From positions 218,904 to 282,903 of the forward strand of contig JAGTJX010000004.1 of assembly GCA_023657465.1 (NCBI GenBank): a stretch of DNA of 64,000 bases, in the 5' to 3' direction. Below, piece by piece: positions 39,374 through 49,617 of the stretch. Numbering within the stretch: the first letter of the stretch is position 1; each line of letters starts with the position of its first letter. Origin of the DNA: Lysobacteraceae bacterium. GTDB lineage: Bacteria > Bdellovibrionota > UBA1018 > JAGTJX01. Made by a program: the position numbers and the translations under genes. The notes below the pieces were generated by a model. The model searched no databases, had not been told where the DNA came from, and saw only the letters and a program-made list of their open reading frames with translations.

Positions 39374-40674
39374 TGTTAGCAATTCCCAAACACACAAAAG
39401 GGTTTCGCACTCGTCGTGCAATGAATTGGTTAGTTCTCGGATTCACTTATTCTGCAATGTACATGGGCAGATACAATCTCAGCTTCGCGAACAAGGCATT
39501 AAGCGATGCCTACGGTTGGGACAAAACCCAAATCGGCGCGATCATCACTGCCGCTCTCTCTCTCTACGGATTCTCGGCAATATTCAACGGACCGATAGCT
39601 GACAAAATCGGTGGCAGAAAAGCAATGCTCATCGGAGCTTCGGGAACTGTGTTTTTTAACTTCCTGTTTGGACTTGGTGCTTACATGGGATTTTTGGGGA
39701 CAGGTTCCTATTTGCTCCTCTACTTTACTGTCATCTGGTCATTAAATTGCTACTTCCAGTCCTATAGTGCTCTTTCACTCATTAAAGTGAATGCGAGTTG
39801 GTTTCATATTTCTGAGCGTGGCGTTTTCTCAGCGATTTTCGGTTCGATGATTCAAGGTGGACGCGCACTCATTTATGCAATCGGTCCTGCACTTGTCGTC
39901 ATTCTTCCTTGGCAGTGGGTGTTCTTCGTTCCTTCGATCATCATCGCTATCATGGCATTCCTCACTTACCGAGTTGTACAAGACGCGCCTGAGAAGGCAG
40001 GTCTCTCTCCTCTAGACGTACAAGATGCTTCGAGTGGTGACACCGAAGTGGTGAGCGTGAAGTATGTTATTAAAAAAGTTCTTACGAATCCTGTCGCGCT
40101 TGCTATTGCCGCCGCAGAGTTTTGTACAGGGATAGTGAGACATGGATTCGAGCAGTGGTTTCCGAGATACATGGTCGAAGCTCAAGGATTGCAACTTAAC
40201 TCTCCTGTGTTTACGAAGAATGCGTTTGCAGTGGTGTTCGCTGGGATTGCAGGTGCGTTTGCTGCTGGAACGATGAGTGACTGGGTATTCAAAGGTCGTA
40301 GGCCTCCTGTTGCGCTTATTGGTTATGTGCTTCAAGTGCTCTGCTTGGGTGTGATCTGGCGTGCTCCGAGTTTGGACTGGGTGACTGCTGCATTCGTGGT
40401 GAATTCATTCGCAATCACGATGGTTCACTCGATGCTCTCTGGAACTTCTTCGATGGACTTCGGTGGCAAGAAAGCAGCTGCTACTGCCACAGGATTATTC
40501 GATGGCATGCAGTACATTGGCGGCGCATTTGTAGGCTTGGGTATGGGATTTCTTCTCGATACTTACGGCTGGGGTGCTTGGGGTCCAAGCATGATCGGGT
40601 TTGCGCTCATCGGTGGTGTGATCATGCTCTTCCTCTGGAACGCACGTCCTCAGTCGAAGAACTCCGGACACTAA
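39373..40674 (+). CDS. MFS transporter, organophosphate:phosphate antiporter type (GlpT/UhpT-like)
   Basis: This 433-residue, 12-helix transporter starts at the ATG at 39373, preceded by GGAGG and sharing a base with the HAD stop. The N-terminal part YSAMYMGRYNLSFANKAL resembles the OPA family Arg/Tyr-Asn signature, and loop 2-3 reads GPIADKIGGRKAMLIG. MSDWVFKGRRPP is the loop 8-9 counterpart. The OPA family exchanges sugar or glycerol phosphates for phosphate. Its stop codon lies in the left arm of the palindromic element 40672-40965. Confidence 0.88.
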   Translation: MLAIPKHTKGFRTRRAMNWLVLGFTYSAMYMGRYNLSFANKALSDAYGWDKTQIGAIITAALSLYGFSAIFNGPIADKIGGRKAMLIGASGTVFFNFLFGLGAYMGFLGTGSYLLLYFTVIWSLNCYFQSYSALSLIKVNASWFHISERGVFSAIFGSMIQGGRALIYAIGPALVVILPWQWVFFVPSIIIAIMAFLTYRVVQDAPEKAGLSPLDVQDASSGDTEVVSVKYVIKKVLTNPVALAIAAAEFCTGIVRHGFEQWFPRYMVEAQGLQLNSPVFTKNAFAVVFAGIAGAFAAGTMSDWVFKGRRPPVALIGYVLQVLCLGVIWRAPSLDWVTAAFVVNSFAITMVHSMLSGTSSMDFGGKKAAATATGLFDGMQYIGGAFVGLGMGFLLDTYGWGAWGPSMIGFALIGGVIMLFLWNARPQSKNSGH

Positions 40675-40965
40675 GCTTTTCTAGCTCTACTTCATCTGCA
40701 TTGTGATCCTAGGTCAATCGCTGCCTAAATAGTCTTCCATAGAGTGCAGCTCCTGCTTCGCATGTACTTCTCAATATATTTTAAGAAGCGGATGAGGTTT
40801 TATCGAGCGTGATGCGAGTCGATAAAGGGCAGGAGCCCGACCGACAGAAGCTTCTTAAAATATATTGAGAAGACGCATCCGCTTACATGAGCCTCAATGG
40901 AAGACTATTTAGACAGTAATTGAATTATGATTTAAACGCAGATGAAGTAGAGCTAGAAAAACTTA
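40672..40965. repeat. Long palindromic structured element, copy 1
   Basis: This element fills the gap between two convergent genes. Outer arms 40672-40699 and 40938-40965 are 28 bp with one mismatch; each arm begins with the TAA stop of the gene on its side. Middle arms 40721-40744 and 40893-40916 are 24 bp with two mismatches. Inner arms 40767-40789 and 40850-40872 are 23 bp, perfect. Between the middle and inner arms lie block 1 (40747-40767) and block 2 (40872-40895), both identical in copy 2 at 48718-48903. The apical part contains an 8-bp hairpin (40799-40806/40819-40826) and block 3 (40794-40817). Its GATGCG is complementary to CGCATC in block 2. Confidence 0.85.
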
Positions 40966-47637: not shown

Positions 47638-48720
47638 GTGAGAGCTTGCCTAATTCCTATTCTTGTTTTTGCCACTGTTTTTACACAAAACATTGAGCCT
47701 AGTTTTGCAGCAAAAGTTTTAGATAAAAACCATTTTTTGAAGTCGCGAGCACCTCTCGCTAAGGATCAAGAGACCCTGCTGAGACGTGCTTTTTACACTT
47801 ACATCTTAAACAGGCCAGAAGCGCTATACCGATGCGTATCCAGTATAGTCATGCAAACTCGTTTTTCAGATTTGAAGAAGAAGCCTGAACTTTTTGAGAT
47901 TTTCATGCTCTTAAGATCTCGAACCCTCTCCCCAACTCCAGAAATGAGTCTGCCGTTCATCAACGACGCAGCGTCGTTTGCTGAGATCTGCCCTGTGAAG
48001 TACGGAGTCTGTCAGGGAATTACGAACCTGGATCGAAAGCTCGCGATGTTGATTTATTACGATCCGAAGAATGTATCGAATCAGCCCCTACCTCCAGTAG
48101 ACAATCCAGAAGCTCGGTTTACTTACTTCGAATCGGTCATCGCTCAAGTGATGAGAGGCAAGCCTATGGTCGTTGCTGGCTACGGTAATCTTCTCAGTTT
48201 TGCTCAGGATCCTGTGGGACGAAGAGTGCTCATTGAAGCTGCAATGAAACTCTGGGCTTCAGAAAACGCGACATTGCCTTCAATTACTCAAGTGCTTCAA
48301 GCAATTAAGCATACGGTTTCAAAAAAAGAAGTGTCTGAACTCCACACCCGTCTCAGTGAGAGAATTGCGCTGAATTACTCGCCGATTATTTATTTGGCGA
48401 GATCACCTCAAGAAGCGAAGCAGAAGTGGATTCATGTACTGCAGGTGATCTCAGTGACTGCGAAAGACCCTAAGAATGGCTCTTATCGCATTCAGGTCAA
48501 GGACCCTAACTTCTATGCCGTTCAAGATCGTATTCGATTCATTGAGATGGATGGTAAAGGAAAAGCTACTTACGGCAACGCTCCACTCACTGAGATCGAT
48601 ATCGCACCAGGTGATGATCTTGAGATCGCAAGGTTTCTCGTTAATACGATTCAGTTCTGCAGAGATAACCCAATCTTCTGCACGATTCCAGGAACCCCGC
48701 CTTCTTTGATGAAGAACTAG
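47638..48720 (+). CDS. Secreted protein of unknown function
   Basis: The product has 360 residues with a GTG start and a signal peptide (RACLIPILVFATVFTQNIEPSFAAK). The mature part is mixed alpha/beta with Cys pairs (CPVKYGVCQG and QFCRDNPIFC). Near residues 245-300 (WIHVLQVISVTAKDPKNGSYRIQVKDPNFY) it resembles papain-like or C39-like folds in outline, but I cannot confirm catalytic residues. It is divergent from the giant lipoprotein. Its TAG stop lies in the left arm of the palindromic element downstream. Confidence 0.78.
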   Translation: MRACLIPILVFATVFTQNIEPSFAAKVLDKNHFLKSRAPLAKDQETLLRRAFYTYILNRPEALYRCVSSIVMQTRFSDLKKKPELFEIFMLLRSRTLSPTPEMSLPFINDAASFAEICPVKYGVCQGITNLDRKLAMLIYYDPKNVSNQPLPPVDNPEARFTYFESVIAQVMRGKPMVVAGYGNLLSFAQDPVGRRVLIEAAMKLWASENATLPSITQVLQAIKHTVSKKEVSELHTRLSERIALNYSPIIYLARSPQEAKQKWIHVLQVISVTAKDPKNGSYRIQVKDPNFYAVQDRIRFIEMDGKGKATYGNAPLTEIDIAPGDDLEIARFLVNTIQFCRDNPIFCTIPGTPPSLMKN

Positions 48721-48903
48721 CCCTCTCTTTAATTTTATGGGTACCTCAAGAGGCTCATGTAAGCGGATGCGTCCTCTTACTTTTATGTAGGAATCGCATC
48801 CAACTCTATAAAATCTCGTACTACTTCAAAAAATAAAAGTGAGATGTACATGCGAAGCAGGAGCTGTACTTTTAAGGTGCCCAATAAATTAAAGAGAGGG
48901 CTA
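48718..48903. repeat. Long palindromic structured element, copy 2 (inverted orientation)
   Basis: It lies between two convergent genes. Outer arms 48718-48746 and 48875-48903 (29 bp, three mismatches) each begin with the TAG stop of the gene on that side and are unrelated in sequence to the arms of copy 1. Inside are block 2 (48750-48773) and block 1 (48846-48866), both identical to copy 1 on the opposite strand. Block 3 (48794-48817) is 19/24 identical. Inner arms share ACTTTTAT (around 48778-48786 and 48833-48840). Compared with copy 1, the middle stem is missing. GGATGCG in block 3 is complementary to CGCATCC in block 2. Confidence 0.85.
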
Positions 48904-49617
48904 TTTTTTCTTAATGAGCCAATTCCTGACTCTGTTCTGAAGTTCGATGTCGCTTGGATCGAAGGTGCCATAGATGCGGTAGGTTTCTTGTGTGGCTCCT
49001 GGCTTAAGGAAATTCTCAGACACTGTGAGAAGTGCAGGGGTAGTTCTGCCTGTGATTTTCTCAAACTCAGGATCTTTGAAATAAAAAATACTTCCTCTGG
49101 AGATTAAGTTTTTTGAACTAAACCAAAGTCCCATTTCATCAATCTTATTCCACTCGAGTGGATACGAGATTTCTGCGCGAGCTTGCGTGGCAGGAACTTT
49201 ATAAAGTGGCGTTGAACTCTTGTCCGAATGTTTCTGAGGAGCATATCGATCTAGTAGAGTCACCAAGCGTTCTTTAGTGGGCGGCTTAATCATGTAGTCC
49301 ATTGCACCCGATTCAAGTGCATTGGAGATCACTTCAGTGTCGTCGTGTCTTGAAAGAATCACGATCGGAAGTGAGCCGTGATGAGCCATCAGAATGGCTT
49401 CAACAAGAATGAGTCCTGATTGAGACTCGCCGATGTCAAGATCGATGAGACATAAATCTGGTTGAAATTCTTCCACTTCTTTCAGGAAAGATTCTGGATC
49501 AGTAGTCGTTTTCACTTCGTATCCCATGTAGGTGACATGTCGTTTGATGAGTGCATTGATCTCTGGGTCATCATCGATGGTGAGAATTTTCTTTTTCACT
49601 TCTTTTTTTATTTCCAT
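48901..49617 (-). CDS. Response regulator with C-terminal output domain (PilZ-like?)
   Basis: This is a 238-residue protein. The receiver domain covers residues 9-130 (DDD 15-17, phospho-acceptor D59, SRHDD in the Thr/Ser position, KPPTKERL). The C-terminal part of about 100 residues (EISYPLEWNKIDEMGLWFSSKNLISRGS and later) is a beta-rich domain that may be PilZ-like but lacks an obvious RxxxR motif. The start overlaps the end of another receiver protein gene (49608-50294). Both are probably partners of the HPt protein and hybrid kinase encoded divergently. Confidence 0.85.
   Translation of the reverse strand: MEIKKEVKKKILTIDDDPEINALIKRHVTYMGYEVKTTTDPESFLKEVEEFQPDLCLIDLDIGESQSGLILVEAILMAHHGSLPIVILSRHDDTEVISNALESGAMDYMIKPPTKERLVTLLDRYAPQKHSDKSSTPLYKVPATQARAEISYPLEWNKIDEMGLWFSSKNLISRGSIFYFKDPEFEKITGRTTPALLTVSENFLKPGATQETYRIYGTFDPSDIELQNRVRNWLIKKK

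Follow-up and report, generated by a model that had tools for sequence, protein, structure and literature searches.

Short mobile palindromes of the REP, BIME and MITE kinds are already known. REPs measure 20-40 bp, carry a GTAG or CGTC tag and are mobilised by RAYT (PMC3733652). The hairpins of Bdellovibrionota described here share with REPs and BIMEs that they are dispersed, extragenic, non-autonomous palindromes, most of them lying in convergent gaps or at the 3' ends of genes, and often organised as inverted pairs (PMC3733652). Nevertheless, they are about 150-300 nt long, with a Y-shaped tip and hypervariable arms, they are unlinked to a Y1 transposase, and the constant REP-type tag (GTAG/CGTC) is not present at their foot. 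Like MITEs (e.g. MITEAba12, PMC6382973), they are small and non-coding, have inverted-repeat arms and, at some sites, a short target duplication. The terminal repeats are the conserved part of a MITE, with a freer interior, whereas these hairpins conserve the tip and differ at the ends, even among the copies of one genome. An empty orthologous site with a target duplication, as expected for a MITE, was identified in the G041/G042 genus only, while conserved terminal inverted repeats, of the kind that a MITE has in common with an autonomous element, were not found: ends are shared only within subfamilies, and an autonomous partner was not detected. Mitochondrial double-hairpin and repetitive hairpin-forming elements are likewise scattered, mobile intergenic hairpins that diverge in structure and sequence, but they are organellar, and a conserved Y tip is not described in the portion of that account drawn upon here (PMC2800124).

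The Bdellovibrionota hairpins also resemble attC sites in folding with a variable stem and fixed unpaired features. Integron attC sites function as a folded strand in which the stem varies and unpaired features are fixed, accompanied by R/L boxes, cassettes and an integrase; these accompaniments were not noticed beside the hairpin copies. The present family seems new in its inverted pattern of conservation, its Y tip, its range across the phylum and the putative dimer of nested inverted modules; we found none of these features described in the literature searched.

Fold of the hairpin and organisation of its tip

In the 64-kb stretch of DNA analysed (the window), copy 1 occupies positions 40672-40965, a convergent gap that runs from stop codon to stop codon (ORFs ending at 40674 on the plus strand and 40963 on the minus strand). 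It forms a 73-nt inverted repeat with 84% complementarity, whose outer 28 bp contain one mismatch and which encloses a perfect 23-bp inverted repeat (40767-40789/40850-40872). Its minimum free energy, -144.1 kcal/mol, compares with -69.3 +/- 4.9 in 200 shuffles, none of which folded as well (z -15.3), so that the rod-like fold of the original prediction is real. The parts of copy 1, and those of a second copy on the opposite strand, are the following:

40672..40741, plus strand: left outer arm of copy 1 (inverted repeat, arm mismatch map)
about 40672-40699, plus strand: outer helix of the left outer arm
about 40699-40718, plus strand: poorly paired zone of the left outer arm
about 40719-40741, plus strand: inner helix of the left outer arm
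40742..40895, plus strand: conserved core of copy 1, 154 nt, the sole portion homologous between copies
40747..40766, plus strand: box 1 (loop strand 1), CAGCTCCTGCTTCGCATGTA, exact match in copy 2
40767..40789, plus strand: stem 2, 5' strand (inverted repeat; covaries)
40799..40826, plus strand: tip hairpin A, with motif GCGTGATGCG at 40807-40816
40827..40838, plus strand: tip hairpin B, GGGC-AGGA-GCCC
40850..40872, plus strand: stem 2, 3' strand (inverted repeat)
40872..40891, plus strand: box 2 (loop strand 2), GACGCATCCGCTTACATGAG, exact match in copy 2
40896..40965, plus strand: right outer arm of copy 1, its end coinciding with the stop codon of the gene on the minus strand
48711..48749, minus strand: one outer arm of copy 2 (inverted repeat)
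48750..48871, minus strand: core of copy 2, 122 nt, tip without hairpin B (homology to other cores)
48872..48910, minus strand: other outer arm of copy 2 (inverted repeat)

The loop strands had been noted as identical in a second element 8 kb away and, in fact, both recur exactly on the minus strand of copy 2 (CTCCTGCTTCGCATGTA at 48847-48863 and GACGCATCCGCTTACATGAG at 48754-48773), where no match such as that of the 20-nt GACGCATCCGCTTACATGAG is expected by chance. No inverted repeat of comparable size besides copies 1 and 2 is present in the window, whose remaining convergent gaps are mostly near zero, with small or absent hairpins. We also observed several convergent gene pairs in the window that overlap by exactly 4 nt and share their stop codons (for example 42070/42066, 24595/24591 and 26408/26404).

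The tip has the shape of a Y, composed of a short helix followed by hairpin A (motif GC-NKGAW-GCG) and hairpin B (GGGC-AGGA-GCCC), the latter being replaced by GGAC-AGGA-GTCC in two genomes, with preservation of the pairing. A second set of conserved boxes, around stem 2, is present in the genome of the window and in one other (G039); TACATG of box 2 and CATGTA of box 1 form a pairing that covaries. Read on the reverse strand, box 2 is AGC-GGAT-GCG, similar to the motif of hairpin A (a pattern observed in 12 of the 13 own copies), and box 1 is AGC-AGGA-GCT, similar to hairpin B, meaning that the same two motifs occur on the opposite strand in the same order as in the tip. We infer from these motifs that the element of this genome may consist of a tip module nested, in inverted orientation, within a second tip module, which would allow the module to be presented by either strand.

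This nesting would account for the complementarity that had been read as a possible pseudoknot. GATGCG is indeed present at 40811-40816, while the apical match to strand 1 is longer than had been stated, since GCAGGAGC (40829-40836) complements GCTCCTGC (40749-40756). The pseudoknot itself was rejected, because the box strands are conserved in copies that lack the partner (C05 has no tip and C02 no hairpin B) and C03, C09, C14 and C18 show mismatches in the pairing. In a further genome (G026; L308:2096-2311) we observed two tip modules in head-to-head inverted orientation, separated by 120 bp, and a third one about 1 kb beyond.

Family range and position relative to genes

A covariance-model search, which the original prediction had proposed, did recover further copies. 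Pattern searches of the complete genome brought up more copies, and the model, built from eight copies, gave 14 matches in the genome of the window, all with E<=2e-11 and distributed over 13 places, one of which (C1:157481-157723) holds two matches as adjoining inverted pieces; the full model detected the family in 7 of the 58 genomes of the relatives set, own genome counted. A tip-only model matched 19 of 369 Bdellovibrionota genomes (about 5%), with up to 12 matches per genome; the members inspected share the tip and a long, nearly perfect stem, except for a few weak matches with no long stem. Named carrier records are metagenome-assembled genomes of Bdellovibrionota (JAUICP 7_bin.39, JAUHWN 2_bin.24, SZAS-2 and others). 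A pattern scan of genome contigs returned mainly unrelated GC-rich stretches, with confirmation only for Bdellovibrionota records, and a scan of viral contigs yielded zero confirmed members. Among the 4227 Rfam families, none matched the element above its gathering threshold (the sole match in the window is a tRNA), in agreement with the original prediction, in which it was not recognised as a known RNA class.

Convergent gaps and the 3' ends of genes are enriched in the hairpins; with crude gene calls, the 49 classified loci comprise 17 convergent, 25 tandem and 7 divergent gaps. In convergent gaps the element fills the available space, often reaching precisely from one stop codon to the other, with the two stop codons equidistant from the core (67/67, 29/29, 74/73, 63/62 and 60/60 nt). 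Most own copies have TA at the foot of the arm, which we did not use as evidence of duplication since it also belongs to stop codons. A consistent sense orientation of the tip downstream of genes was rejected, as the orientation relative to the adjacent gene is inconsistent, and so was a promoter in the mismatch zone of the arm, where scores are at background. At L043:1387-1669 an element lies right behind a tRNA-Ser gene, and its arm takes in the last 8 nt of that gene. We rejected the tRNA as a copied target because other copies of the same genome (G006) share the arm start CTCYRCCATTT, so this end may be the element's own.

Divergence and matching of the arms

Homology between own copies stops sharply at the core: identity between C07 and C08 is 91% over 154 nt, with nothing shared outside, and C01 and C03 are 92% identical in the core, with arms devoid of homology. 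The arms in this genome, of approximately 65-75 nt, differ at each locus, yet the two arms of one copy are complementary to each other. Three copies (C03, C05 and C18) have outer arm boxes in common and different inner arms. We also observed that the outer arm ends of these three copies correspond to a solo 22-nt intergenic sequence, GGTAGTCCCATACTTCACGTAGC, near position 1500 of L216, L217 and L218. In eight copies, the zone lying 24-43 nt from the core is enriched in arm mismatches, its 20 positions out of 60 holding 64 of the 95 (p<5e-5 by circular shift), and this regular layout of helix, mismatch zone of about 20 nt and helix suggests some structural selection on the outer arms of this genome, beyond simple drift.

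The stems covary strongly, with 91.6% of cells paired, both sides changed in 21 of 41 pairs, and 45 cells changed on both sides vs 5 on one, a result equalled in none of 500 shuffles. RNA stems under selection usually evolve via G-U pairs. In the own arms, G-U mismatches number 28 and A-C mismatches 37, and in the single-tip elements, with the IS1-borne copies described below left out, about 26 and about 30, respectively; again with the exception of the IS1-borne copies, there is no strand bias of wobble pairs in the arms. Covariation nearly without G-U intermediates, together with this lack of strand bias, points to correction of the arms at the DNA level and not to selection on a single RNA. 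Template switching is a documented way of making, maintaining and repairing stems (PMC8794818), and replication template switching between the arms is most likely what keeps them matched. The original prediction, which took conserved loops on variable stems as a sign of selection on structure, is upheld in that loops are fixed and stems covary; selection specific to RNA is not, as G-U does not exceed A-C and promoter scores are at background.

Mobility and alternative explanations

Comparison of two species of one genus (G041 and G042) revealed three loci at which one species carries the element and the congener has an empty site, with flanks of about 90-97% identity. This comparison covered 5429 of 7037 nt of query, with two loci left out, and all empty sites are from these two genomes. 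At L058 the empty site is GTATCGTGAGTAGTAAAGG and the filled site is flanked on both sides by AGTAG, a 5-bp duplication; CATATTT is repeated at L055, where about 10 bp were also lost, and GTG at L044, so that the duplications vary between 3 and 7 bp, being clear at L058 and shorter or imperfect at the other two loci. The L058 arms lie within the inserted DNA and are missing from the empty site, therefore the arms travel with the element in this genus. The mobile-element alternative raised by the original prediction is accordingly the one favoured, although the near-identical copies, stems included, that it had envisaged were not what we found, as arms differ per locus. Just outside one arm, L044, L038 and L057 have a one-sided box in common, GGTGTGTCAAAGGAATAAG; these sequences suggest that the element of genus g27 may be longer than its hairpin.

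In two genomes (G261/G262) the element directly follows the stop codon of an IS1-like transposase gene and has multiplied along with that insertion sequence (NCBIfam IS1 below cut-off, E 1e-14):

L150:4010-5188: IS1-like insertion sequence bearing the hairpin right after the transposase stop codon
L169:4099-5276: as above
L107:1221-2394: as above

This transposase was rejected as mobiliser, since it is found without the element, is absent from genomes with it and has homologues without the hairpin; it is a mere carrier in two genomes. The arm mismatches of these IS1-borne copies are, unlike those of other copies, mainly G-U on the transposase strand. A Y1/RAYT transposase was rejected as well, showing no correlation with the element and being absent in G026, G035, G041 and G042, and we found no hairpins flanking the Y1 transposase gene of the own genome (G000).

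We consider it fairly probable that copy 1 belongs to a new non-autonomous family of mobile DNA hairpins of Bdellovibrionota, REP/MITE-like and conserved at the tip. More tentatively, and with rather more doubt than support, the family could be a phylum-wide mobile element recognised via its structured tip, with ends and arms free to diverge, possibly moved by a putative enzyme whose substrate would be RNA or folded single-stranded DNA. The Y tip would probably be recognised, in extruded or single-stranded form, by a mobilising or binding protein, allowing non-autonomous movement and insertion into a site with the short duplication seen in one related genus; the nested inverted modules of the own-genome copies would offer the tip on either strand. 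The long arms would need complementarity only; they would drift fast, and template switching would most likely be what makes them match again at the DNA level. Copies would be retained at gene 3' ends because they do no harm in that position and because the hairpin could terminate transcription in both directions, the element probably being also a bidirectional terminator.

A structured non-coding or 3'-UTR RNA class, in which the tip would bind a protein such as CsrA and the stems would be under RNA-level selection, seems rather unlikely, despite the strong stem covariation, the conserved loops, the AGGA in the loop of hairpin B and the presence of CsrA in 56 of the 58 genomes searched. The IS1-borne copies, which are not independent of each other, do have mainly G-U arm mismatches (23 vs 3 A-C), located on the tip strand, but this excess is absent from the remaining members. 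Moreover, GGA is missing from loop A in many copies (GTGATGCG), which led us to reject a CsrA sponge, and neither the variable orientation of the tip, nor promoter scores at background, nor a patchy presence with empty sites fits an RNA class. A role mainly as bidirectional terminator or insulator of convergent genes, with the tip as a factor-binding site and dispersal as secondary, would explain the stop-to-stop placement, the symmetric stop distances, the convergent bias in the own genome and the small or missing hairpins of the near-zero convergent gaps in the window. We find it improbable, as most convergent pairs have no element, several members lie in tandem or divergent gaps, and a tip conserved across the phylum is needed by no terminator.

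Quite improbable, in our assessment, is an attC-like or REP-like recombination site made of folded DNA, whose single-stranded hairpin would be acted on by a tyrosine or HUH enzyme: as in attC, the stem sequence is free while the structure is retained and the unpaired bases are fixed, and inverted pairs recall REP dimers (PMC3733652), but a correlated Y1 transposase was not found and no integrase or cassette array was noticed beside the copies. Arms arising as inverted target duplications, from hairpin-primed synthesis at insertion, would suit the arms unique to each locus, the symmetric stop codons and copy C09, whose right arm carries an inverted 8-nt copy of GTACTCTC from an ISL3-like terminal repeat; this origin is refuted for the G041/G042 genus by the absence of the L058 arms from the empty site, is at odds with the common outer arm boxes of C03, C05 and C18, and is very improbable overall. 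C09 (L009, minus strand, about 1320-1560) lies within the terminal repeat of that ISL3-like element. The mobile, tip-conserved family that we favour does not fully cover the unrelated outer arms around cores of about 91-93% identity, which could reflect concerted evolution of the core at old loci or, with some support from C09, replacement of the arms at insertion.

With these hairpins, a repeat family is added to the genomes of Bdellovibrionota, which have been little studied, and the rule usual among small mobile repeats is turned around, conservation lying in the tip and not at the ends. A mobile hairpin would have been turned into the 3' boundary of essential genes, for example at C08, where the gene is, judged by eye from its sequence, presumably argS. 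Covariation alone is often taken to prove a functional RNA; this natural series of long stems bears on that practice, since it makes covariation produced by DNA template switching directly testable against that produced by RNA selection.
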